This document shows positions 5,810 through 60,698 of a stretch of DNA of 64,000 nucleotides, in pieces. The stretch's first letter is position 1. Each line of letters opens with the position of its first letter. The stretch lies in the NCBI GenBank assembly GCA_002868945.1, contig PKTX01000028.1:1-64000 (forward strand). Direction: 5' to 3'. Source of the DNA: Desulfobulbaceae bacterium (lineage in GTDB: Bacteria > Desulfobacterota > Desulfobulbia > Desulfobulbales > SURF-16). The notes below the pieces were generated by a model. That model saw nothing but the letters and a program-made list of their open reading frames with translations. It was not told where the DNA came from and did no database searches. The translations under genes were made by a program, and so were the position numbers.

Positions 5810-6268
5810 ATGAACCCACGTTGGAACGACCTGAACCAGATGTTTGGCGCCATGGATCTTCTCCGCAACAGGATGAACCGTATCAACAGACTCTTTACCG
5901 ATTATGACCGGGCCTGGGGAGGCAACGAAGGCTGGCCCATGGCCAACAACTGGCCCCGCACCAACCTCTATGACGACAACGACCATCTGCAGCTGGTCGC
6001 GGCCGTGCCTGGCCTGGCCAAAGAGGATATCAACATCAAACTGCAGGGCAACTACCTGGAGATCAGCGGCACCAGGAAGGTCACGGTGCCGGACGGCTAT
6101 ACCGCCCATCGCCTGGAAAGGGGCGGTGAGACCTCTTTTTCGCGCAGCTTCACCCTACCGGTGGATATTGACATCGACAAGGTGGAGGCCACGCTCAAGG
6201 ACGGCATCCTTACCCTGCAGCTGCCCAAGGCTGAGGTGGCCAAGCCCAAGAAGATCACCATTAATTAG
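5810..6268 (+). CDS. Small heat shock protein (Hsp20/alpha-crystallin), copy 1
   Basis: A 152-residue holdase chaperone expected to bind unfolding proteins in the cytoplasm. The N-terminal arm of about 45 residues (MFGAMDLLRNRMNRIN, WPMANNW) precedes the alpha-crystallin domain. That domain begins at RTNLYDDNDHLQL, carries AAVPGLAKEDINIKL, and ends with the conserved A-x-x-x-DGIL-x-L block (ATLKDGILTLQLPK). A C-terminal KKITIN gives the I-x-I anchor. GGAGG lies seven to eight bases before the ATG. It is first in an operon with copy 2 (114-bp gap), which suggests a hetero-oligomeric pair. Confidence 0.95.
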   Translation: MNPRWNDLNQMFGAMDLLRNRMNRINRLFTDYDRAWGGNEGWPMANNWPRTNLYDDNDHLQLVAAVPGLAKEDINIKLQGNYLEISGTRKVTVPDGYTAHRLERGGETSFSRSFTLPVDIDIDKVEATLKDGILTLQLPKAEVAKPKKITIN

Positions 6269-9333: not shown

Positions 9334-9550
9334 GGCCATCTTGAATAATTGCCATTTTGACCGATTTCTTCGTCGCTACGAAAATAAAAATGCTCACATA
9401 TCATTAATATGCTGCACCCCAAGGGCACCCGGAGTGTCGCAGGCTCCCTTACCTCTTGCAGGGCGCGCTTTTTATTTTCTATGCTTCTTGAACTCGAACA
9501 GGTAAGCGAGCGGAGCGAGACTCCGAAATATCTAATTATTCAAGATACCC
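9334..9550 (-). mobile_element. MITE-like element, 217 bp copy (TIR + 4-bp TSD)
   Basis: The ends are GGCCATCTTGAATAATT and the complement of GGGTATCTTGAATAATT, with TGAA duplicated at 9330-9333 and 9551-9554. The body has the GGCTCCCTTACCTCTT and AAGCGAGCGGAGCGAG modules seen in other copies. Its length equals that of the copy at 22795. Short open frames cross it but are not genes. It occupies most of the space between mscS and the dehydrogenase. Confidence 0.88.
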
Positions 9551-9660
9551 TGAAGAAGAACAGCACCGGGCTGTCAAAAGGCTGCCCTCGGCCGTCGAGA
9601 AAAAGGGGGAGAGCCGCATTGAAGCAGCCGGGAAAACTTACCCGCTGGCCTGGCTTTATT

Positions 9661-9687
9661 TTGACAACAATGGAGACTCTTTACTAT
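9661..9687 (+). promoter_or_regulatory. Putative promoter of the amino-acid dehydrogenase / oxoacid operon
   Basis: TTGACA (9661-9666) is followed after 15 bases by TACTAT (9682-9687). The spacer is short. It lies 48 bases before the start codon and downstream of the mobile element. Confidence 0.4.
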
Positions 9688-9734
9688 CCTTTTTACAGAG
9701 ACAAATAAACCACTTTTCCGGTCATGACCTGCCC

Positions 9735-10844
9735 ATGGAACTCTTCCATCTCGCCGACGAGCTCGGCCCCGTAAAGATCCTCCACATCCACGAACCTGTT
9801 ATCGGCCTCAGGGCCATTGTCGTGGTGGACAATGTAGCCTGCGGCCCCTCCATCGGCGGTGTCCGCATGGCACCGGATGTCAGTGTCCAGGAGGCCTGCC
9901 GCCTGGCCCGGGCCATGACCATGAAGAACGCCGCCGCCGGCCTGGCCCACGGCGGCGGCAAGGCAGTCATCTTTGCGGACGCCAAGATGGCGGACCCGGC
10001 CAAGGAACAACTGATCCGAGCCTTTGCCTGCGCCATCAAGGACCTGCACGACTACATCCCCGGACCCGACATGGGCACGGACGAGGCATGCATGGCCTGG
10101 GTGCAGGATGAAATCGGCCGGGCTGTGGGGTTACCGCGTGCCATCGGCGGCATCCCCCTGGATGAGATCGGTGCCACCGGCTACGGCCTGGCCATCTGCG
10201 TGGATGCGGCCCTGGAGTTCTGCGATTTTGCGCTGGCCGGTGCCCGCCTGGTGGTCCAGGGCTTTGGCTCGGTGGGCAAAAACGTCGCCCGCTTTCTGGT
10301 GGAGAATGGGGCCGTGCTGGTGGGGGTGGCCGATTCCGGAGGAGCCGTCTATAACGAGCAGGGTCTTGACCTACCAACCCTGCTGGCCCTCAAGGGAAAG
10401 GGTGGCAGCGTGGCGCACTATACCGACGGCCAGGTTTTTGCCAGCCATGAAGTGATCGGTTTTGCCTGCGACATCTGGATTCCGGCCGCCCGGCCCGATG
10501 TTATTCACCATGATAATGTTGACCGACTCCAGGCCCGGCTGGTGGTGCCCGGCGCCAATATCCCCTTCAACGACGAGGTGGCCGCCCGCCTCCATGAACG
10601 CTGCGTGCTGGCCGTTCCCGACTATATCGCCAATGCCGGCGGCGTCATCTGCGCGGCCGTGGAATATCATGGCGGCAGCCAGATTGCCGCCTTTCAGGAA
10701 ATCAGCGAAAAAATCAGGTGTAACACCACGGCGGTCCTGACCGACATGCGCCAAAAGGAGATCCTGCCACGCCAAGCCGCAGCCGACATGGCTGTCCGCC
10801 GTCTGCAGAGTGCCATGGCCAGCCGGCGCTGGCATCTTTTTTAA
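9735..10844 (+). CDS. Glu/Leu/Phe/Val dehydrogenase family protein
   Basis: This 369-residue NAD(P)-dependent enzyme would deaminate an amino acid to a 2-oxoacid, or the reverse, in the cytoplasm. The N-terminal dimerisation/substrate domain has SIGGVRM, then MKNAAAGLAHGGGKAVI with the catalytic-type Lys, then GPDMGTDEACMAWV. The Rossmann domain contains VVQGFGSVGKNVA (G-x-G-x-x-G), followed by IPAA and VVPGANIPF-x-DEVA, PDYIANAGGVI. The GLAHGGGK block resembles leucine/phenylalanine/valine dehydrogenases more than classical GDH, so a branched-chain or aromatic substrate is likely but unproven. It lies 109 bp before the ferredoxin oxidoreductase genes, which would take the oxoacid onward. Confidence 0.88.
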   Translation: MELFHLADELGPVKILHIHEPVIGLRAIVVVDNVACGPSIGGVRMAPDVSVQEACRLARAMTMKNAAAGLAHGGGKAVIFADAKMADPAKEQLIRAFACAIKDLHDYIPGPDMGTDEACMAWVQDEIGRAVGLPRAIGGIPLDEIGATGYGLAICVDAALEFCDFALAGARLVVQGFGSVGKNVARFLVENGAVLVGVADSGGAVYNEQGLDLPTLLALKGKGGSVAHYTDGQVFASHEVIGFACDIWIPAARPDVIHHDNVDRLQARLVVPGANIPFNDEVAARLHERCVLAVPDYIANAGGVICAAVEYHGGSQIAAFQEISEKIRCNTTAVLTDMRQKEILPRQAAADMAVRRLQSAMASRRWHLF

Positions 10845-10953
10845 CTGCGGGGCTCCGGGCACGAAGGAGGGAGTAAGAACATAGCGGTTGCCGGAGCGTC
10901 CGGACACCTCTTTCCGCCCTGTGCGCCTTCATCCTCTTCAGCCGGAGGTTGCA

Positions 10954-11868
10954 ATGTACCGTATCCGTTTCCATGGCAGAGGTGGTCAAGGAATGAAGAC
11001 CGCCAGCCGCATCCTGGGCACCGCCCTCTTTTTAGAGGGGTTCGAGGTCCAGGATGCACCGCGCTACGGCGCGGAACGGCGCGGCGCCCCCATGTTCGCC
11101 TATGTCCGGGCCCACCACAAACCGATCAACGAGCGCGGCATCATCAGCCGACCGGCACTGGTGGTGGTCAGTGACGACAGCCTCCTTGCCATGGCCGCAG
11201 CCGGGGTGACAAACGGCCTGACGGCCGCCACCCTCCTGGCCGTCTGCACCACTCGCCCTTCTTCCTTTTATGACCATCACGACGACCTCAAGGGACAACT
11301 CATCCTCTTTAGGCCGCCGGCCTCTGTCAACGGCCACTCGCAGCTCTCCAGTTGCTGTGCCGGGGCTGCCGCCGCCCTGCTCGGCATCATCAGCCCCGCC
11401 AACCTGGCTGCGGCTGTGGCCCGTGAACTCGACGCCCTGCCGCCGGAACGTATTCGCGTCAACCAGCAAGCCGCTGCCACCGTCTTTCGCCGACTCACGG
11501 AGAACGGCGCCTTTGTCCGGGAAGGTGCGGACCAGGTGCGGGTCAAGAGGCCCCACTGGCTCACCCTGGCGCTTGACAGCGCTGCCCTGGCCGCTCCGGC
11601 CATCCATGCCGCCGCCACCACTCTGCGAATGGACACCGGCCTCTGGCGCAGCCAACGCCCGGAGATCGATTTCGACACCTGCACCTGCTGCGGCCTGTGC
11701 AACATCTACTGCCCGGATGGCGCCATCAGCCTCGGCGACAACGGCTGCCCCGCCATTGATTACCAGCACTGCAAGGGCTGCCTGATCTGCCTGAACCAGT
11801 GTCCCACCGGCGCCATCAGCGCCCGGCCCGAAGCCGCCGCACACGAGACCGACGAGGTGGAGGCATGA
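10954..11868 (+). CDS. 2-oxoacid:ferredoxin oxidoreductase, fused gamma and delta (2x[4Fe-4S]) subunits
   Basis: About 304 residues. Residues 1-185 form the gamma (CoA-binding) domain, beginning MYRIRFHGRGGQGMKTA with the diagnostic GRGGQG. After a linker the C-terminal 70 residues are a ferredoxin domain with CTCCGLCNIYCPDG and CKGCLICLNQCPTG, giving two [4Fe-4S] clusters. The ATG at 10954 is chosen for the GGAGG seven bases upstream and because GRGGQG lies at the usual place; an upstream in-frame ATG at 10888 adds 22 unconserved residues. The stop overlaps the alpha-subunit start (ATGA). Gamma-delta fusion is a known arrangement of this heterotetramer. Confidence 0.93.
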   Translation: MYRIRFHGRGGQGMKTASRILGTALFLEGFEVQDAPRYGAERRGAPMFAYVRAHHKPINERGIISRPALVVVSDDSLLAMAAAGVTNGLTAATLLAVCTTRPSSFYDHHDDLKGQLILFRPPASVNGHSQLSSCCAGAAAALLGIISPANLAAAVARELDALPPERIRVNQQAAATVFRRLTENGAFVREGADQVRVKRPHWLTLALDSAALAAPAIHAAATTLRMDTGLWRSQRPEIDFDTCTCCGLCNIYCPDGAISLGDNGCPAIDYQHCKGCLICLNQCPTGAISARPEAAAHETDEVEA

Positions 11869-13112
11869 AGCGCACCCTGCTCACCGGTAACGGCGCCGCC
11901 GCCTGGGGGGCCCGCCTGGCCTGCATCGACTATCTGCCCGCCTTCCCCATTACACCGCAGACCGAGATCATTGAGACCATCAGCAGCTGGATCGACCAGG
12001 GGCTTATGGCCTGCCGCATGGTGAGCATGGATTCCGAACACTCGATGATCACCGCGGCCGGAGCAGCAGCGGCCACCGGCGTCCGCACCTTCACCGCCAC
12101 CTCCAGCCAGGGTCTGCTCTACGGCATGGAAATGCTCTATGCCGTGGCCGGCTGGCGGGTGCCCCTGGTGCTGGTCAATGTCTCCCGGGCCCTGGCCGCC
12201 CCCGTCACCCTGGAGCCGGACCATAACGATGTGCTGGCCGCCCGCGACAGCGGCTTTATCCAGATCCACTGTGCCACCTGTCAGGAGGTGGTTGACACCA
12301 TGCTCCTGGCCTACCGCCTCAGCGAAGACAAGCGACTGCGCCTGCCGGTGATCGTCAACCTGGACGGCTACTACCTCTCCTTTACCCGCGAACCGGTGAC
12401 CCTGCCCGATCCGCAATTGGCCAGTCGCTTCGTGGGACCGCCCACCAGCCGAGCCGATCAGATCCAGGCCTCTCACCCCACCTCCCTGGGCATTGCCGTG
12501 CTGGGGGGCAGCCAATACTCCTACTTCCGTTATGAGCAGCACCTGGCCGCCCTGGCCGCCCTGGAGATATATGACGATTTGGGCCGCGACTATGGTCGGC
12601 TCACCGGCCGCTCTTACAGCGCCTTGGCATGCTACCGCTGCCATGGGGCAGACATGGTCTTTGTGATGATCGGCTCCTTTGCCACCAAGGGCAAGGATGC
12701 CGTGGATCAACTGCGCGCCATGGGGCTGGCCGTGGGCCTGGTCCGCCTTCGCCTGGTCCGGCCGTGGCCCGGCGTTGCCCTGGCCACGGCCCTGGCCGAT
12801 AAAAAAGGAGTGGCGGTGATTGACCAGAATCTTTCCATGGGCCAGGGCGGCATTCTCTATCAGGAGGTGGCGGCCGCCCTCTACCATCGGCCGGATCGCC
12901 CCCGGGTGCTGTGCAGCTATGTCGGTGGCCTGGGCGGTCGCGACATCAGCCTGGAGGATTTTCGCGGCATGGCCGAAGAGACGCTGCAGGCGGCGGCAAG
13001 CGGCCGGACACCGCCGCCCCGCCTGCTCTATACGGAAGAAGACCTTGCGCAGATGCGCGCCGCCCAGCAGGTGGCGGCGCCAGACATAGATCCGGGAGCA
13101 GAGACACCATGA
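11865..13112 (+). CDS. 2-oxoacid:ferredoxin oxidoreductase alpha subunit (PorA-like)
   Basis: About 415 residues. Domain I has GNGAAAWGARLA and AFPITPQTEIIE; the YPITP-type motif is typical of POR/VOR alpha subunits. It continues with SEHSMITAAGAAAATGVRTFTATSSQGL and with LEPDHNDVLAARDSG. Domain II (after residue about 245) has VFVMIGSFATKGKDAVDQL and then a C-terminal VIDQNLSMGQGG. Together with the beta subunit it would oxidatively decarboxylate a 2-oxoacid to acyl-CoA, CO2 and reduced ferredoxin. Starts and stops overlap by 4 nt on both sides (ATGA), so translation is coupled. The substrate cannot be read from the sequence; the neighbouring dehydrogenase points to a branched-chain or aromatic oxoacid. 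Confidence 0.93.
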   Translation: MKRTLLTGNGAAAWGARLACIDYLPAFPITPQTEIIETISSWIDQGLMACRMVSMDSEHSMITAAGAAAATGVRTFTATSSQGLLYGMEMLYAVAGWRVPLVLVNVSRALAAPVTLEPDHNDVLAARDSGFIQIHCATCQEVVDTMLLAYRLSEDKRLRLPVIVNLDGYYLSFTREPVTLPDPQLASRFVGPPTSRADQIQASHPTSLGIAVLGGSQYSYFRYEQHLAALAALEIYDDLGRDYGRLTGRSYSALACYRCHGADMVFVMIGSFATKGKDAVDQLRAMGLAVGLVRLRLVRPWPGVALATALADKKGVAVIDQNLSMGQGGILYQEVAAALYHRPDRPRVLCSYVGGLGGRDISLEDFRGMAEETLQAAASGRTPPPRLLYTEEDLAQMRAAQQVAAPDIDPGAETP

Positions 13113-14032
13113 GCAGCGCACCACAAAAGCCTTCCAGCCAGCCACTTGGCCACCAGCTGGCCGCCGGCACCTCCACCTGTGCCGGCTGCGGCGCCCTGCA
13201 GGGCATCAGGCTGGTCCATGACATCCTGGACAGCAAGGTGTTCTTCGTCAATGCGGCCGGCTGCATGACCCTGCTGTCCATCTATCCCTTTACCCCCTTT
13301 GCCGGCGCCTGGCTCTATACATCCATGGCCTCGGCCGCAGCCGGAGGCCAGGGGGTACGCGACGCCCTGGACATCATGCTGGCCGGTAAACGACTGCCAC
13401 CGCAAGAGGATATGCAGGTGGTGGTGCTCAGCGGCGACGGATCGGCCGGCGGCATGGGTCTCTCCGCCACCTCCGGAGCCATGGACCGCAACCTTGACTT
13501 CATTTACCTCTGCTACGACAACGAAGGTTACGGCAATACCGGCTACCAGCTCTCCGCCGCCACGCCGCACGGGGCCCGGACCACCACCAGCACCAGCGGC
13601 AACCCCGGGTACAAGAAGGAACTCTTTGACATCTGGACGGCCCATAAACCGGCCTATGCCGCCACCATCTGCGGCGCCGAACCCGGCGATCTGCGTAAAA
13701 AGGTGGAAACGCTCAAGGGCATCAAGGGCCCCCGCCTCCTCTTGGCCCTGAGCCCCTGCCCCACTGCCTGGCACTTTGAGCCGGCCGACACCATCACGCT
13801 GGGCAAACTGGCCGTTGCCTGCGGCCTCTGGCCCCTCAAGGAGTATAAGGAGGGACGGCTGGTCCACACCAAGGTTCCCAAGAAGACCGGCCGACGGCCG
13901 CAGGTGGAGGAGTATCTCCGACTGCAGGGCCGCTATCGCCACCTCTTTGCACCCCGCCGTAATGATCGTGTCATCAGTGAGATCCAGAACCGGGTGGACC
14001 GCTACTGGGAGAAGGTCACGGATGAAGGTTGA
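13109..14032 (+). CDS. 2-oxoacid:ferredoxin oxidoreductase beta subunit (PorB-like, TPP-binding)
   Basis: About 307 residues. An N-terminal Cys pair (TCAGCGALQG) and NAAGCM provide ligands for the proximal [4Fe-4S] cluster. The TPP/Mg site is GDGSAGGMGLSATSGAMDRN followed by YDNEGYGNTGYQLS, closely matching the PorB pattern (YDNE-x-Y-x-NTG). Conserved ATPHGARTTTS follows. The ATG at 13109 overlaps the porA stop. The reading frame is open well upstream, but that part is antisense-free shadow within porA. It overlaps the acyl-CoA synthetase start by 11 nt. All expected cofactor residues are present. Confidence 0.94.
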   Translation: MSSAPQKPSSQPLGHQLAAGTSTCAGCGALQGIRLVHDILDSKVFFVNAAGCMTLLSIYPFTPFAGAWLYTSMASAAAGGQGVRDALDIMLAGKRLPPQEDMQVVVLSGDGSAGGMGLSATSGAMDRNLDFIYLCYDNEGYGNTGYQLSAATPHGARTTTSTSGNPGYKKELFDIWTAHKPAYAATICGAEPGDLRKKVETLKGIKGPRLLLALSPCPTAWHFEPADTITLGKLAVACGLWPLKEYKEGRLVHTKVPKKTGRRPQVEEYLRLQGRYRHLFAPRRNDRVISEIQNRVDRYWEKVTDEG

Positions 14033-15755
14033 GAAGGCCGGCATACCGCCGCGACACAGCTATTTCCGCGGCGAGGATGAACCGCCGTTGCTGGACAGCA
14101 CCATTCCGGCCCACTTTCAGGCCATGGCCCGTTGCTTTGCCCAGCGTGAAGCAGTGGCGGCCGTCCCCCAGCAGCGCCGTCTGAGCTATGCCGAACTGAC
14201 CAAAGAGGTCGATGACGCGGCCCGCGGCCTCATGGCCCTGGGCTATTGCCAGGGCGACCGGATCGGCATCTGCTCCACCAACAACCTGGAGTGGGTGGTG
14301 ATTCAGATGGCCTGCGCCCGCATCGGTGCCATCCTGGTCAATATCAATCCGGCCTATCGCCTGCCGGAACTGGCCTATGCCCTGCGCCACGCCGAGCTGC
14401 AGGGCCTCTTTACCATCCCCGCCTTCCGCTCCAGCAACTATCCGGCCATGCTGGCCGAACTGCTGCCGGAACTGGCCGTCTCCCATGGGGCGGAACTGAA
14501 AAACAGTGATCTGCCCCACCTGCGCCATATCATCTGCTATGACCCAAAGGAGCGTTATGGCGGGGAGCCGCCCTTGCCCGGTCTGCTCTCCTGGGCCGCC
14601 CTGCTGGCCCGGGCCGACGAAATCAGCCAGACGCAACTGGAAAGGCGTACTGCCACCCTGCGGCCCGACGAGGTGGTCAACATTCAGTACACCTCCGGCA
14701 CCACCGGCCACCCCAAGGCGGTGATGCTCAGCCATACCAATATCCTCAACAACGCCTGGTTCAGCGCCCGTATCCTGGGTTTTAGCGAGAATGACCGCCT
14801 CTGCGTGCCGGTGCCCTTCTACCACTGCTTCGGCACGGTCCTGGCCACCCTGCTCTGTTTCTCCTGCGGGGCCTGTCTGGTGATTGCCTGCGACCACTTT
14901 GAGGCGGGCCAGGTGCTGGCGGCGATTGAGCAGGAGCGCTGCACCGCCATCCACGGCGTGCCCACCATGTTCATTGCCGAGCTTGAGCATGCCGCCGCAC
15001 AAAGGAGCGACACCAACACGTTGCGCACCGGCATCATGGCCGGCGCCCCCTGCCCGCCATCCCTGATGCGAAGGGTGATGGCCGACATGCATTGCCCGGA
15101 AATCATTATCGGTTACGGCCAGACCGAGGCCTCACCGCTCACCCACCTGACCAGACGCGACGATAACCTCAGGCGCCGCACCCTCACCGTGGGCCGCAAC
15201 CTGCCACATCAGGAGGTCAAGATCGTGGCCGTGGAGAACAACGAGATCGTTGCCATCGGCCAGGTGGGAGAAATCTGCTTCCGCGGCTATCACCTGATGC
15301 GCGGCTACTACAGGGATCCGGAGGCCACCGCCCGGGCCATCGACCAGGAGGGCTGGCTCCACTCCGGCGACCTCGGCAGCATGGATGAGCACGGCTACCT
15401 GAGCATCACCGGCCGTCTTAAGGATATGATCATCCGGGGCGGCGAGAACATCTATCCGGCCGAGATTGAAGAGGTGCTCTTTGGCCATCCGGCCGTGGCC
15501 CAGGTGGCGGTGATCGGCGTGCCGGATGACTACTGGGGCGAGGAGATCATGGCCTGGGTTGCCGTGCACGCCGGTGTCGAGCCGCCCGAGGCGCCCGAGC
15601 TGCAGGACTATTGCCGGGCCAGGTTGGCCCATTTCAAGATTCCCAAATATATCTGGCTGGTTGACGAATTTCCCCTCACTGTCACCGGTAAAATCCAGAA
15701 ATTCAAGATGCGCCGCCAGGCCATTGCCGCACTTCAAAATCAGGAGAACCAATGA
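14022..15755 (+). CDS. AMP-forming acyl-CoA synthetase (ANL superfamily)
   Basis: About 577 residues. The P-loop-like motif is YTSGTTGHPKAVMLSH, followed by VPFYHCFG, then GYGQTEASP (A5 motif), GWLHSGDLG (A7), RLKDMIIRGGENIYP (A8 hinge) and a C-terminal TGKIQKFKMR with the catalytic Lys (A10). It resembles medium/long-chain or branched acyl-CoA synthetases of the FadD/AcsM kind. The ATG at 14022 lies 11 nt inside porB; the frame is open further upstream but only as porB shadow. In this operon it may activate carboxylic acids, or run in reverse to draw ATP from the acyl-CoA made by the oxidoreductase. The second is inference. Confidence 0.93.
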   Translation: MKVEKAGIPPRHSYFRGEDEPPLLDSTIPAHFQAMARCFAQREAVAAVPQQRRLSYAELTKEVDDAARGLMALGYCQGDRIGICSTNNLEWVVIQMACARIGAILVNINPAYRLPELAYALRHAELQGLFTIPAFRSSNYPAMLAELLPELAVSHGAELKNSDLPHLRHIICYDPKERYGGEPPLPGLLSWAALLARADEISQTQLERRTATLRPDEVVNIQYTSGTTGHPKAVMLSHTNILNNAWFSARILGFSENDRLCVPVPFYHCFGTVLATLLCFSCGACLVIACDHFEAGQVLAAIEQERCTAIHGVPTMFIAELEHAAAQRSDTNTLRTGIMAGAPCPPSLMRRVMADMHCPEIIIGYGQTEASPLTHLTRRDDNLRRRTLTVGRNLPHQEVKIVAVENNEIVAIGQVGEICFRGYHLMRGYYRDPEATARAIDQEGWLHSGDLGSMDEHGYLSITGRLKDMIIRGGENIYPAEIEEVLFGHPAVAQVAVIGVPDDYWGEEIMAWVAVHAGVEPPEAPELQDYCRARLAHFKIPKYIWLVDEFPLTVTGKIQKFKMRRQAIAALQNQENQ

Positions 15756-18181
15756 CCATTCAGAAAATCAGTTCGGAAGAGGCCTACCACCGTTGCGACC
15801 CCAGCACCTTTTCCTTTGAAACCACAACCGAGGTGGAGGAACTCAACCACTTTATCGGCCAGGACCGGGCCCTTGAGGCCGTTGATTTCGGCATCGGCAT
15901 GGCGCAACAGGGCTTCAACCTCTTTGTCGCCGGCCCGGAAGGTTCAGGCCGTCACACCGTGGTACAGTCCTTTATCCACCACAAGGCCGGTCAGGAACCG
16001 ACTCCCAGTGACTGGTGCTATGTCCACAACTTTCGCCAGCAGCACAAGCCGTTGGTCCTGGAGTTGCCCTCCAGCCAGGGCATGGTCTTCAAGGGCGAGA
16101 TGTATGACCTCATCGACACCCTGAAGACCACCATTCCAGCCATCTTTGAGGGGGACGATTATCGCAACAGGCATCGAACCATCACCGATAGCCTGGCCCA
16201 GAAAATTGAGGCCCTCTACCATGAGGTGGAAGAAAAGGCGGCAGCGGAAAGCATTGCCGTGTCCCGCACCGATCAGGGCTTTCGCTTCTCCCCCACCAAC
16301 GGCAAGGGCGAACCCCTCAGCCTTGAGGAGTTTCGCAAGCTTCCTGACAATGTCAAAAAACGAATCGAGGAAACCATTGAAAAACTGCAGACCATTCTGC
16401 AGGAGGCCATCCACCAGATCAGCATCTGGAAACGGGAAAGCGAAGAGAAGACTCGCAAACTCAAAAAAGACACGGCCCGCCAGGCGGCCTCCCACTTCAT
16501 CGAACCCCTGAAGAAAAAATATGCGGAACACGAAAAAGTCCTCCTCTACCTCGATGATGTGGAAGAGGATATCACCGAACGGGTGGATGACTTCCTCGGC
16601 AGCGAGGCCGGCGGCCAAAATCCCTTTATCATGGCCATCGGCGGCAACCAGGCGCCCTCCTTTGAGCAGTACGAGGTCAATGTCCTGATCAGCCATGAAA
16701 ACAACCATGGCTCACCGGTTATCTACGAGGACCTGCCCACCTATCAGAACCTGCATGGCCGCATTGAGCATCAGGCCCGCATGGGTGTTCTGACCACCAA
16801 CTTCACCCTGATCAAACCGGGTTCCCTGCATCTGGCCAATAATGGCTACCTTATCCTTGACGCCCGCAAGCTGCTCATGCAGCCCTTTGCCTATGAGGGC
16901 CTCAAACGAACGCTGCGCTCGAAAAAGGTGCATATTGAACCGGTGGAGCGACTGCTGGGCCTGGTGAGCACCGTTTCCCTGGAGCCTGAGCCCATGGACC
17001 TCAACATCAAGGTGGTGCTCATCGGCGAGCCCTTGATCTACTATCTTCTCAACGCCTATGATCCGGAGTTTATCGCCCTGTTCAAGGTGCAGGCCGACTT
17101 TGAAAGCGACATGAAACGGGACCGGGAAAGCCAGGAGCTCTACGCCACCCTCATTGCCGGCCTGGCCAAGGACAAGGGACTGCTGCCCCTGCATAACAGT
17201 GCCGTGGCCCGTCTCATCGAACAGGCTACCCGCAAGGCCGGTGACCGCGACAAGCTGTCGTTGCGCATCCGCGACTTTGCCGACCTCATGCAGGAGGCCG
17301 ACTACCTGGCCAAGAAAGAGAAGAAGGCAACCATTGACAACAGCGATGTGGAGCGGGCCATTGCCGCGGCCAAGAGACGGGGGAGCCGTATCAGGGACCG
17401 CCTCTTTGAGGCCATGGAGCAGAATATCCGTCATATTGAGACCGGCGGCAGCCAGGTGGGCCAGATCAACGGCCTGTCGGTGATCATGCTGGGCAACGAC
17501 ACCTTTGGCTGCCCGACCCGTATCACCGCCCTGACCAGGCCGGGCAAGGGCAAGATCGTCGACATTGAGCGGGAGGTGGAACTGGGTGGCCCCATCCACT
17601 CCAAGGGCGTCATGATCCTCTCCTCTTTTTTGAGCAGTCGCTACGCCCGCAACATCCCCCTCAGCCTGCAGGCCAGCCTGGTCTTTGAGCAGTCCTACGG
17701 CGGCGTGGATGGCGACAGCGCCTCCTGTGCCGAGCTCTGCAGCCTGCTCTCCTCCCTGGCCGATGTTCCCATCAAACAGTCCCTGGCCATCACCGGCGCC
17801 GTCAGCCAGAAGGGCGAGGTGCAGGCCATCGGCGGCGTCAACGAGAAGATTGAAGGCTTTTTTGACCTCTGTGAGAGTCGCGGCCTCACCGGTGAGCAGG
17901 GGGTCATCATCCCGGCCAGCAATGTTCGCCACCTGATGCTCAAAAAGGAGGTACTGGCGGCCATGGCGCAGGACACCTTCAGCGTCACGGCGGTGCACAG
18001 CGTCGATGAGGCGGTGGAATTGCTCACCGGCCTGGCTGCCGGAGAACGGGACCAGGCCGGCAACTACCCGGCAGAGTCGATCAACGGCCGCGTTGAGACC
18101 ACCCTGCTGGCCTTTGCCAAAAACCTGCAGGACTTTGACAAGGACGAGAAGAAGGACCCGGAGGATGAGGGGGCCAGTTAG
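15752..18181 (+). CDS. Lon-like AAA+ serine protease (LonB/LonC-like, AAA_32 type)
   Basis: 809 residues, soluble, no membrane segment. An N-terminal part with GPEGSGRHT at 61-69 stands where Walker A should be, with Arg in place of Lys. A helical, charged insertion covers roughly 150-290, followed by an AAA+-like core (PGSLHLANNGYLILDARKLL as Walker B region). The C-terminal Lon protease domain has the dyad S656 in GVDGDSASC and K699 in IGGVNEKIEGF. It lacks the Lon N-terminal substrate domain. The start overlaps the synthetase stop (ATGA), so it is translationally coupled to a metabolic operon. It may be a quality-control protease with weak or no ATPase activity, as reported for LonC-type proteins. 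Confidence 0.92.
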   Translation: MTIQKISSEEAYHRCDPSTFSFETTTEVEELNHFIGQDRALEAVDFGIGMAQQGFNLFVAGPEGSGRHTVVQSFIHHKAGQEPTPSDWCYVHNFRQQHKPLVLELPSSQGMVFKGEMYDLIDTLKTTIPAIFEGDDYRNRHRTITDSLAQKIEALYHEVEEKAAAESIAVSRTDQGFRFSPTNGKGEPLSLEEFRKLPDNVKKRIEETIEKLQTILQEAIHQISIWKRESEEKTRKLKKDTARQAASHFIEPLKKKYAEHEKVLLYLDDVEEDITERVDDFLGSEAGGQNPFIMAIGGNQAPSFEQYEVNVLISHENNHGSPVIYEDLPTYQNLHGRIEHQARMGVLTTNFTLIKPGSLHLANNGYLILDARKLLMQPFAYEGLKRTLRSKKVHIEPVERLLGLVSTVSLEPEPMDLNIKVVLIGEPLIYYLLNAYDPEFIALFKVQADFESDMKRDRESQELYATLIAGLAKDKGLLPLHNSAVARLIEQATRKAGDRDKLSLRIRDFADLMQEADYLAKKEKKATIDNSDVERAIAAAKRRGSRIRDRLFEAMEQNIRHIETGGSQVGQINGLSVIMLGNDTFGCPTRITALTRPGKGKIVDIEREVELGGPIHSKGVMILSSFLSSRYARNIPLSLQASLVFEQSYGGVDGDSASCAELCSLLSSLADVPIKQSLAITGAVSQKGEVQAIGGVNEKIEGFFDLCESRGLTGEQGVIIPASNVRHLMLKKEVLAAMAQDTFSVTAVHSVDEAVELLTGLAAGERDQAGNYPAESINGRVETTLLAFAKNLQDFDKDEKKDPEDEGAS

Positions 18182-18183
18182 TG

Positions 18184-18419
18184 CCTATCCAGAAATGGCC
18201 CTCTCGGAGTCTCGTAAACTCGCTTGCCGGCCCGATCTCGGCATCAGGCTTAAAAAATAATGCTCGGAGGTAAGCGAAACGAAGTGGAGACGCCGATATG
18301 GCATATATGCCTGCACTCCAAGGGTACCCGGAGTGTCGCAGGCTCCCTTACCTCTTTCAGGGCGTGCTTATTTTCTCGCACTCCTTGATCTCGAACGAAA
18401 TGACCTAGTTCCTGGACAA
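18184..18419. repeat. Mosaic MITE-like repeat with type-II ends
   Basis: The left end is CCTATCCAGAAATGGCC and the right end is roughly the complement of TTTGTCCAGGAACTAGG. The body shares long blocks with the element at 31440 (in inverse orientation): CTCTCGGAGTCTCGTAAACT, CCGATCTCGGC, GGAGACGCCGATAT, AGGCTCCCTTACCTCTT. It starts right after the stop of the Lon-like gene and fills the gap to the Mut7-C gene. The right boundary is approximate. Confidence 0.6.
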
Positions 18420-18448
18420 ACACCAGTTAAGATGAGACCACGTTACCT

Positions 18449-19209
18449 ATGAGCCTTTGCCTCCACTTCCACGGCGATCTTGTCGGCCTGCTGCGCCGCC
18501 GCTGGCGAGGCCGGCCAGCGGTTGAGATCCCCGGGGCGGCCGTAACGCCTCCATCAAGGATGTGGTGGAATCCTTTGGCCTGCCCCACACCGAGGTGGGC
18601 ACCCTGCTGGTGGATGGCACGGCCGTGGATTTTACCTACCTCGTCCAGGGAGGCGACCGCATCGACATCCGCCCCATAGAGCCGCCCTGGCAAGTGCGGA
18701 TTGCCTCGCTGCTGCGGCCCCGTCCCCTGGCCGAGCTGCGCTTTCTGGTTGATGCCAATGTCGCTAAACTGGGGCGCCTGCTGCGCATGGCCGGTTTTGA
18801 CACGGCCTCTTATCCAAATTGGTCCGACGCCCGGCTGGCTGCCTGCGCCGCCGGCGAGCAGCGCCTGCTGCTCAGCAAGGATCGCGGCCTGCTCATGCGC
18901 AAGGAGGTGGAATTCGGCCGCTACGTCAGGGCCACCATGCCGGCGGAGCAGCTCAGGGAGATCATCAATCTCCTGGGAATTGCCGAAGAGATGGATCCCC
19001 TGAGCCGCTGCCTGGAGTGCAACAGTCCCCTGCAAAGGGTTGCCAAGGAGGAGATCAACCACCTGCTGGAGCCCTTGACCCGCACCTACTATGAGGAATT
19101 CAGCCGCTGTCCGGCCTGCCACAAGATATACTGGCCCGGCAGCCATGTCGACAAAATGCGTGTCCTGCTGGCTGACCTGTTGCCCGAGCGAGAGGTCAGG
19201 CGCCGCTGA
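18449..19209 (+). pseudogene. Mut7-C RNase-domain protein with N-terminal ubiquitin-like domain, frameshifted
   Basis: The frame from the ATG at 18449 encodes the start of the Mut7-C-associated ubiquitin-like domain (LCLHFHGDLVGLLRR, AVEIPG). The next frame continues the same domain (NASIKDVVESFGLPHTEVG, VDFTYLVQGGDRIDI) and then the Mut7-C PIN-like RNase domain (RFLVDANVAKLGRLLRMAGFD, LLSKDRGLL). It ends with a zinc ribbon (CLECNSPL and CPACHKIYWPGSH). One base missing near CCCCGGGG at 18527-18534 explains the break; adding one G restores a single frame. From 18562 onward the frame is clean (215 codons). Its end overlaps the convergent TPR-methyltransferase by 14 nt. It may be a real mutation or a read error. 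Confidence 0.75.
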
Positions 19210-22805: not shown

Positions 22806-23011
22806 TATTATTAGATTTTTTGTTCGAGCTTGAGAAGCATAGAAAATAAAAAGCGCGCCCTGAAAGAGGTAAGGGAGCATGCGACACTCCGGGTGCCCTT
22901 GGGGTGCAGCATATCGGGCATATGTGAGGACTTTTATTTTCGTAGCGACAAAAAAATCGGACAGGTAAGCGAGCCTGCGAGACTCCGAAAAAGCAATTAT
23001 TCAAGATGGCC
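22795..23011 (+). mobile_element. MITE-like element, 217 bp copy (TIR + 4-bp TSD)
   Basis: The left end is GGATATCTTGATATT and the right end ATTATTCAAGATGGCC. TACA is duplicated at 22791-22794 and 23012-23015. The body has the AAGCGCGCCCTGAAAGAGGT, CGACACTCCGGGTGCCCTTG and TTATTTTCGTAGCG modules. Its length equals that of the copy at 9334 (opposite orientation). It interrupts the 3' end of the HTH/zinc-ribbon gene. The 172 bp from its right end to the next gene holds GC-rich sequence and no gene. Confidence 0.9.
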
Positions 23012-31339: not shown

Positions 31340-31439
31340 GCAACACCCGTGATTTCAAAAATAATTTGTTGATACGTCTCGGCAAGACGCAAAAATAATG
31401 TTCCTCCTCGCCATCTGTTCTCAGTATATACCAACTTAT

Positions 31440-31731
31440 GGATATCTTGAATAATTAGATATTGCGGAGTCTCGCTGGCTCGCTTACCTGTTCGAAATCA
31501 AGGATCTGCGAGAAAAATAAGCGCGCCCTGCAAGAGGTAAGGGAGCCTGCGACACTCCGGGTACCTTTGGGGTGCAGGCATATATGCGATATCGGCGTCT
31601 CCCCTTCGTTTCGCTTACTCCGAGCATTATTTTTTGAGCATGACGCCGAGATCGGGCCGGCAAACGAGTTTACGAGACTCCGAGAGGGCCATTTCCGGAC
31701 AGGCACGAAATAGCAATTATTGAGGATAACG
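31440..31731. mobile_element. Composite MITE-like element, about 292 bp
   Basis: The left end GGATATCTTGAATAATTAG is canonical; the right end (TAGCAATTATTGAGGATAAC) is degenerate. Inside, a type-II end (complement of CCTGTCCGGAAATGGCC) lies at 31687-31703, the same end seen at 18184, and the body between is shared with that element. No clear target duplication. Small open frames on both strands are not genes. The rest of the 619-bp gap holds the Fur/PerR-type box at 31837. Confidence 0.65.
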
Positions 31732-40300: not shown

Positions 40301-40388
40301 AAAGAGTGTATATCCCTCCACTGTGACACTGCCCGTAAAGAAGAGCCCTTAGCAACACGTCGCTGTCCGGCACAGTGCAAACACTAAT

Positions 40389-40491
40389 GGGTATCTTGAA
40401 TAATTAGATATTTTATTTTGGTAGCGCCGAAAAAATCGAGCAGGTACGCCAGCGAAGCGAGACTCCGAAAGAGCAATTATTCAAGATGGCC
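40389..40491 (+). mobile_element. MITE-like element, short (103 bp) copy
   Basis: The ends are GGGTATCTTGAATAATTAG and the complement of GGCCATCTTGAATAATT. The body is TATTTTATTTTGGTAGCG and CGAGACTCCGAAA only. The flanks TAAT and TCAT differ by one base. Same short class as 51391-51492. The rest of the 619-bp gap to the HDOD gene holds a T14 run (40650-40663) and no gene. Confidence 0.75.
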
Positions 40492-41786: not shown

Positions 41787-41879
41787 CTAGAAGCCGCCAC
41801 GACATCCAGCGGTTTTTGGGCTCCCAGGCAACCGCGCCCCTGCCTCAGAGGGACAAGCCGTCCGGCTCAAGCTTCTCCC

Positions 41880-41936
41880 GGCCATTTTGAATAATTGCTC
41901 TTTCGGAGTCTCGCTTCGCTCGCGTTCCTGCCCGTT
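41880..41936. repeat. One-ended MITE-like remnant
   Basis: GGCCATTTTGAATAATTGC followed by TCTTTCGGAGTCTCGCTTCG is the standard outer end and first module of the family. No partner end is found before the MFS gene. The remaining 278-bp gap is C/T-rich and has no gene. Confidence 0.55.
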
Positions 41937-42064
41937 TTTTTCCGATTTCCCTGACGCCTCTCTCCTCGCCCTGCACCACCTGAACCTTGTCCCTTGGGCC
42001 CGCCATCTTCTCTCTTGCATCTCTCTCGTCCCTGAACTACTTGATCCTGCCCTGCCGACCGAGG

Positions 42065-51356: not shown

Positions 51357-51390
51357 GGTTCACTCCTCTTAACGGATAACGATTTAGGAA

Positions 51391-51492
51391 GGGTATCTTG
51401 AATAAGTAGATATTTTATTTTCGTAGCGACGAAAAAATCGAGCCGGTAAGCGAGCCTGCGAGACTCCGAAATAGCAATTATTCAAGATGGCC
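51391..51492 (+). mobile_element. MITE-like element, short (102 bp) copy (TIR + 4-bp TSD)
   Basis: The ends are GGGTATCTTGAATAAGTAG and the complement of GGCCATCTTGAATAATT; GGAA is duplicated at 51387-51390 and 51493-51496. The body has only the TTATTTTCGTAGCG and GAGCCTGCGAGACTCC modules. Confidence 0.88.
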
Positions 51493-51528
51493 GGAACATC
51501 TTTTCGTGAGCAGGGCATGGCACACGCC

Positions 51529-53341: not shown

Positions 53342-53583
53342 CAGCCCGTTGAAAAACTACTGCGCTCGAAGGTCTCTCTTCGTTCACTATCTACTGATGC
53401 GTCGTCAAAATTCGGCTTGAGCTAAGCGAGCCTGCGAGACTCCGAAATGCTCCTAAACCCCATGTAAACTGCACCCCAAGGGTACTCGGAGTGTCGCAGG
53501 CTCCCTTACCTCCTGCGGGCGCGCATTTTTTTGCCTCATTTTTCCTAGCCTCAGCTGCGCTCGCTGCCTTTTTCAACGGGCTG
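53342..53583. mobile_element. MITE-like element with type-III ends, 242 bp
   Basis: The ends are CAGCCCGTTGAAAAA and TTTTTCAACGGGCTG. The body shares GAGCCTGCGAGACTCCGAAA and AGTGTCGCAGGCTCCC modules with the type-I elements. No matching target duplication. The right end lies four bases from the pyruvate kinase stop. Confidence 0.65.
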
Positions 53584-60485: not shown

Positions 60486-60698
60486 GGGTCTCTTGAATAA
60501 GAGAGTGCTCGAACTTCCGAAGCATGGAAAATAAAAAGCGCGCCCTGAAAGAGGTAAGGGAGCCTGCGACACTCCGGGTGCCCCTGGGGCCGGCATGCCA
60601 AGCATATGTGAGGACTTTTATTTTCGTAGTGCCGAAAAAAAATCGGGCCGGTAAGCGAACGAAGCGAGACTCCGAAAGAGCAATTATTCAAGATGGCC
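60486..60698 (+). mobile_element. MITE-like element, 213 bp copy
   Basis: The ends are GGGTCTCTTGAATAAG and the complement of GGCCATCTTGAATAATT. The body is nearly the same as that of the 22795 copy. Flanks GCAA and TTAA do not match, so the target duplication is lost. It stands 38 bases before the DUF362 start. The rest of the gap to the aminotransferase end has no gene. Confidence 0.75.

Follow-up and report, generated by a model that had tools for sequence, protein, structure and literature searches.

Why should the gene for a Lon-like protease close a run of genes for the oxidation of amino acids? The question is raised by a 64,000-nucleotide (nt) stretch of a Desulfobulbaceae genome (contig PKTX01000028.1, positions 1 to 64,000; the whole stretch is called the window here), in which an amino-acid dehydrogenase, three genes for a 2-oxoacid:ferredoxin oxidoreductase (POR), an AMP-forming acyl-CoA synthetase (ACS) and the protease follow one another. 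Sequence comparison across genomes shows that the five enzyme genes form a module of conserved order, that a promoter region in front of it is shared in the genus, that the protease is of the LonC type and that LonC is linked to the module repeatedly. By a modest degree, we lean towards reading the locus as an operon for the oxidation of amino acids that also carries an ATP-independent protease acting on unfolded protein, an arrangement that could serve protein recycling in energy-poor conditions.

The six genes and their fate in one genus

The genes and sites under discussion, with lengths in amino acids (aa), are as follows.

9661-9690, + strand: promoter-like site (TTGACA, 18 nt, TATCCT) 5´ of the dehydrogenase gene, from a consensus scan and conservation in the genus
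9735-10844, + strand: ELFV amino-acid dehydrogenase (Leu/Phe/Val type), 369 aa; Pfam PF00208/PF02812
10954-11868 (ATG at 10954), + strand: POR gamma-delta fusion, 304 aa; PF01558, TIGR02175, TIGR02179
11865-13112, + strand: POR alpha, 415 aa; PF01855, PF17147
13109-14032, + strand: POR beta, 307 aa, binding thiamine pyrophosphate (TPP); PF02775, nearest models 2-ketoisovalerate ferredoxin oxidoreductase (VOR)/POR beta
14022-15755, + strand: ACS, 577 aa; PF00501, PF13193
15752-18181, + strand: LonC-type protease, 809 aa; PF13654, PF20436, PF20437 (LonC helical), PF05362
15932-15958, + strand: LonC Walker A-like segment GPEGSGRHT in the translation, with arginine at the lysine position
17717-17719 and 17846-17848, + strand: LonC catalytic residues Ser656 and Lys699, in GDSA and N.K.EGF motifs that are invariant in orthologues

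All six families were assigned and confirmed with Pfam and NCBIfam. The start of one gene overlaps the stop of the previous one by 4 nt (ATGA) at the gamma-delta/alpha, alpha/beta and ACS/LonC junctions and by 11 nt at beta/ACS; the dehydrogenase stop lies 109 nt before the gamma-delta ATG, with no overlap. A reading of the locus made earlier from its sequence only had described six genes in one run, overlapping from gamma-delta onward, and the re-read starts and family assignments agree with it, sharpening "Lon-like" to LonC. A terminator-like hairpin at 10818-10833, where the dehydrogenase gene ends, was rejected, as it showed no excess over shuffled sequences.

The same six-gene order occurs in a second genome of the genus, G001, and in a third, G003, where it is split over two contig ends, making a chance arrangement unlikely. 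Conservation in relatives had been proposed as a check; the order of all six genes is kept here, and that of the enzyme genes far beyond the genus. The 45 nt around the promoter-like site are also conserved 5´ of the dehydrogenase in G001 and G003. The ACS/LonC overlap is again 4 nt in G001; G003 has a 19-nt gap instead, and a Shine-Dalgarno-like AGGAG precedes LonC in all three genomes. The translational coupling of the protease assumed in the sequence-only reading is thus not conserved in the strict sense, given this gap and a ribosome site belonging to LonC itself; co-transcription of LonC with the module is better supported.

A fourth genome of the genus, G002, has LonC without a close dehydrogenase. 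Directly 5´ of its LonC lies the dehydrogenase promoter region (84% against the window over 45 bp, E = 4e-9), and then a 54-bp stretch, about 42 nt of it before the ATG, that matches the ACS gene end and ribosome site of G001 (83%). The simplest reading of these matches is a deletion scar, in which the enzyme genes would have been lost internally; in the ancestor LonC would then have been read from the dehydrogenase promoter, and it would have been retained after the enzymes were gone. An empty site preceding insertion was considered for G002 and rejected, given the dehydrogenase promoter and ACS tail in front of LonC.

LonC and its recurrent link to the dehydrogenase

By all published sequence marks, the window protease is LonC. 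Its nearest solved structures are LonC of Meiothermus and Thermus (4fwd, E = 4e-91). The CX3GLX(G/E) insertion that follows the catalytic lysine in the published consensus (PMC3391209) is present as C-ESR-GL-T-G, and the phi-X2-A-phi insertion of helix alpha5 as VLAAM near residues 734-738, in a gapless alignment to LonC 4fwd. The Ser656-Lys699 dyad is invariant in the LonC alignment, and the AAA+ motifs are degenerate, GYLILDA being without the Walker B glutamate and GPEGSGRHT an altered Walker A whose arginine recurs in every Desulfobulbia LonC of this clade that has a readable motif. Its LonC relatives break down unfolded protein and are not ATPases, and this includes MtaLonC of Meiothermus, which keeps GPPSLGKHE (PMC3391209); the change of lysine to arginine would thus put the window LonC further than MtaLonC from an active ATPase. 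Identity as LonA or archaeal LonB was rejected, since the LonB model scored far under its cut-off and the LonC features are all present; the two further Lon genes detected in the genome resemble LonA. The physiology of LonC is little known, with a part in the disposal of damaged protein under stress having been proposed (PMC3391209).

Outside the genus, LonC is found near the dehydrogenase in several arrangements. The two genes stand head to head about 200-230 nt apart in three genomes of the class (G130, G131, G141) and, beyond the class, 276 nt apart in Arenicellales (L066). They share a strand at a distance of 7 kb in G142, 2 kb in Marinobacter (L106, L112) and 2.9 kb in Kiloniellaceae (L125), where LonC lies behind ACS, the E1a-E1b-E2 genes of a branched-chain oxoacid dehydrogenase complex and the dehydrogenase; the distance is 1.4 kb in Chromatiales (L065) and 2.4 kb in another gammaproteobacterium (L073). 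As a control for linkage we took the 50 genomes behind loci not centred on Desulfobulbia, found LonC in 40 and searched these same 40 for LonA. LonC was within 16 kb of the dehydrogenase on one contig in 8 of the 40 and within 3 kb in 5; these counts include Marinobacter and Kiloniellales twice each, draw on many short contigs and treat related genomes as if they were independent. LonA, found in 39 of the genomes, was within 16 kb in none (0/39; Fisher p = 0.003 by genome, 6e-4 by gene).

The two genes also co-occur above expectation. Among 258 genomes of the class, 35 have the dehydrogenase, 58 have LonC and 20 have both, against 7.9 expected; among 350 evenly sampled Gammaproteobacteria, LonC is present in 19 of the 22 that have the dehydrogenase versus 88 of the 328 that do not. 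On a LonC tree of 59 rows the label "linked" takes 9 changes, at least 8 of them on well-supported branches, so the link appears to have been gained or lost many times. As judged from these comparisons, LonC is a recurrent neighbour of the module and no accident of this genome. The presence of the protease, formerly called unexplained, has thereby gained a context in other lineages; a role for it in the pathway would be a further step. A literature search, in which coverage of subscription journals was thin, found no paper tying LonC to the module. The recurrent link appears to be new, and most other parts of the locus ordinary.

Several observations concern LonC and its surroundings more generally. 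In another genus (g55 of family f12; L130, L132, L134-L138), LonC is 75-82% identical to that of the window and nests within the window-genus LonC on the tree, which suggests acquisition by horizontal transfer without the module. Located 3´ of the window LonC is a Ub-Mut7C/Mut7-C gene (18442-19209), and G002 has one likewise; the first 30 or so codons of the window gene are in another frame (a tblastn match covers residues 30-240, at 64%), pointing to either a frameshifted gene or an assembly error. One copy of an intergenic palindromic repeat starts at the extreme 3´ end of the LonC gene. This repeat is about 200 bp long, resembles a miniature inverted-repeat transposable element and has the ends CATCTTGAATAATT; the window has copies at 9334-9555 and 18173-18400, and further ones at about 1062-1227, 22807-23011, 31435-31714, 40388-40491, 41878-41942, 51390-51494, 53420-53519 and 60492-60698. 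Its core, CGGAGTGTCGCAGGCTCCCTTACCTC, has 164 copies in the genome and 0 in a reversed control. A mobile block framed by the copies at 9334-9555 and 18173-18400 was rejected, given the 164 copies genome-wide and the position of the block in G001, where it is flanked by MscS-like and Hsp20 genes, the same place as in the window.

The enzyme module and the direction of its route

A scan for the dehydrogenase over 84,980 species genomes left 80 loci, selected by the dehydrogenase alone, LonC not being a criterion. The exact order and strand of dehydrogenase, gamma-delta, alpha, beta and ACS recurs in 25 of the 80 loci, spanning Desulfobulbia, Gamma-, Beta- and other Proteobacteria. In 16 more, POR begins just 3´ of the dehydrogenase but is truncated or missing parts; the POR genes are ordered differently in 8, and 7 have a dehydrogenase-synthetase pair without POR. 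In twelve, a branched-chain oxoacid dehydrogenase complex is encoded close to the dehydrogenase, together with a synthetase in 7 of them. In several loci E1a-E1b-E2 takes the position of POR beside the same dehydrogenase, the complex being present in the relatives L042, L088, L089, L105 and L154, and in G011 the genes E1a-E1b-E2-E3 and lipoate genes are followed by a dehydrogenase-synthetase pair. Overlaps of 1 to 16 nt are frequent within the POR genes across lineages, and the junctions on either side vary more. On this evidence the five-enzyme module is old and widespread, and within the class it also occurs without LonC (G005, G008, G036). The same type of dehydrogenase is found in Methanosarcinales, Methanosaeta and ANME-1 archaea (L068, L084, L087, L102, L104, L116), where the nearby POR genes differ in order and orientation.

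In ELFV dehydrogenases that act on glutamate, a lysine and a serine bind the gamma-carboxylate. Aligned with glutamate dehydrogenases (GDH), the window enzyme has isoleucine in place of the lysine (GPSIGG at residues 37-42, for GPYKGG or GPTKGG) and alanine at the serine position (GGVICAAVE). Identity as a GDH was rejected because both residues are replaced; the enzyme is probably not a glutamate enzyme, and a hydrophobic amino acid is its likely substrate. Its ELFV domains, short form of about 370 aa and hydrophobic gamma-carboxylate site are those of the Leu/Phe/Val type. The POR has the full subunit set of the POR/VOR type: gamma, delta, whose two 4Fe-4S motifs lie in the C-terminal part of the fusion, alpha, whose nearest solved relative is the alpha subunit of a pyruvate:ferredoxin oxidoreductase (9bt4), and TPP-binding beta. 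The VOR and POR models score alike and the phenylglyoxylate and oxalate models slightly lower, none of them above the equivalog cut-off. The ACS scores 829 bits against PRK12583, for which the cut-off is 832.

The branched-chain oxoacid dehydrogenase complex normally runs oxidatively only. Replacement of POR by this non-homologous complex, which carries out the same reaction, therefore supports both the route and its oxidative direction, and we regard this swap, seen by genome comparison, as the best evidence for the two. In G036 (L041) a PALP+ACT gene resembling threonine dehydratase (13777-14994) starts directly behind the module; as another putative source of 2-oxoacid, it fits breakdown. 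From amino acid through oxoacid to acyl-CoA, the predicted route is well supported, and this part of the sequence-only reading has been strengthened by the conserved order, the swap and the dehydrogenase residues. The suggestion that ACS runs backwards, giving acid and ATP, is only possible. Acs1 of Syntrophus offers a precedent for an AMP-forming synthetase run in reverse with a gain of ATP (PMC4992975). In the present genome we found no H+-pyrophosphatase, and it encodes a 724-aa protein of the ADP-forming acyl-CoA synthetase type, so ATP could be made elsewhere than at ACS. We thus treat ACS as a putative step of exchange between acyl-CoA and acid, in either direction. In a wider sense, POR and the branched-chain complex appear to be interchangeable parts of one conserved module, and knowledge of this module should help the annotation of uncultured Desulfobulbia and Gammaproteobacteria.

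What the protease may contribute

In the scheme we favour, the six genes would form one operon, read from the promoter just 5´ of the dehydrogenase. The dehydrogenase would deaminate hydrophobic (branched-chain or aromatic) amino acids to 2-oxoacids, POR would decarboxylate these to acyl-CoA with reduction of ferredoxin, and ACS would exchange acyl-CoA with the free acid. LonC, as a hexameric protease, would cut unfolded polypeptide without the cost of ATP, as do its studied relatives, such that damaged protein could pass through LonC to peptides, through peptidases to amino acids, and from there into the module, a form of recycling under low energy. The substrates, the direction of flux and the feeding of the pathway by LonC are what we infer from the genes and their neighbours. 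If the scheme is right, unfolded protein would be disposed of without ATP and its amino acids used as fuel, and the tie to the module would offer a concrete, testable role for LonC in protein recycling under energy limitation. It is tempting to go further and see in LonC a protease dedicated to feeding amino-acid oxidation at no cost of ATP, co-regulated with the module, in an arrangement that arose several times in Proteobacteria; we consider this stronger version doubtful.

A number of points weigh against the favoured scheme. LonC yields peptides, not amino acids, and the operon is without a peptidase gene. LonC is not beside the module in 32 of the 40 control genomes; in G008, which has both, they lie on different contigs. 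We chose the 16-kb limit with the data already in view, and the Fisher values for co-occurrence (1e-6 and 3e-8 in the two surveys) ignore relatedness. The commonest partner of LonC in other lineages is a universal stress protein (Usp) gene directly 3´, often overlapping (L161, L166, L168-L171, L180, L181, L073, L106, L112, L125), and genes close to LonC also include Hsp20 (6 loci), slipin (6) and NfeD (5). These recurrent genes mean that the link may reflect a shared stress neighbourhood and not a metabolic feed. This is the main rival, in which LonC would belong to general stress and proteostasis genes and the module would be merely co-located, both being expressed in starvation or anoxia with no metabolic hand-over. 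The window itself has an Hsp20 gene at 5810-6268. A Pseudomonas protease, AsrA, is presumably LonC-like. This stress protease belongs to the RpoH regulon (PMC9866376), as might be expected on the rival account. However, several lineages have the dehydrogenase itself 200 nt to 3 kb from LonC, and in the genus of the window the protease gene sits within the enzyme operon and shares its promoter; we give a stress neighbourhood alone a real but minority chance.

Other accounts concern the module or its junction with LonC. POR-type enzymes and ELFV dehydrogenases are reversible, and the module could be assimilatory, with free branched or aromatic acids activated by ACS, carboxylated by POR and then aminated, or with acyl-CoA priming branched fatty acids. 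AMP-forming synthetases normally activate acids, as does MbcS of S. aureus in the priming of branched fatty acids (PMC10026030), and the ADP-forming enzyme, in a genome where no H+-pyrophosphatase was found, would be available for acid formation. The substitution of POR by the E1-E2 complex fits the oxidative direction only, however, and the adjacent protease and the threonine-dehydratase-type gene fit breakdown, so that we think an assimilatory module rather unlikely. It could also be argued that the module became joined neutrally to an old LonC gene that had stood alone, and that descent has preserved the ACS-LonC junction since: LonC is solo in G006, G008, G013 and genus g55, where it is nested on the tree with LonC of the window genus, the module is missing at this place in G002, and the overlap is absent in G003. 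Such a chance join is weakened by the scar in G002 and by the LonA control, linkage having arisen independently in other lineages and orientations for LonC and not for LonA, and it seems to us the least probable of these accounts.

Several known systems come close to parts of the locus. The bkd operon consists of genes for leucine dehydrogenase, E1-E2-E3, phosphotransbutyrylase (Ptb) and butyrate kinase (Buk). As in this operon of Bacillus and Listeria, the window gathers a dehydrogenase, the decarboxylation of oxoacids to acyl-CoA and a step between acyl-CoA and acid in one cluster (for the position of Buk and Ptb, see PMC10026030). Unlike it, the window has POR and not E1-E2-E3, a complex that relatives carry, so the cluster does not count as bkd-type; it also has an AMP-forming synthetase for Ptb-Buk, and a protease gene in addition. 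Hyperthermophilic archaea employ transaminases or GDH together with ADP-forming synthetases, from genes that do not form one operon with a protease, and the window differs in each of these respects. Their peptide fermentation resembles the predicted route in that VOR converts branched oxoacids to acyl-CoA with ferredoxin (a work cited in PMC7238569). Acs1 of Syntrophus aciditrophicus is, like the window ACS, an AMP-forming synthetase, and provides a precedent for ATP from acyl-CoA (PMC4992975); its substrate is acetyl-CoA. Finally, the window LonC shares with MtaLonC of Meiothermus and TTC1975 of Thermus the domain set, the CX3GLX(G/E) and phi-X2-A-phi insertions, GYLILDA for Walker B and the Ser-Lys dyad, and it differs from both in its Walker A arginine and in having its gene within a metabolic operon.

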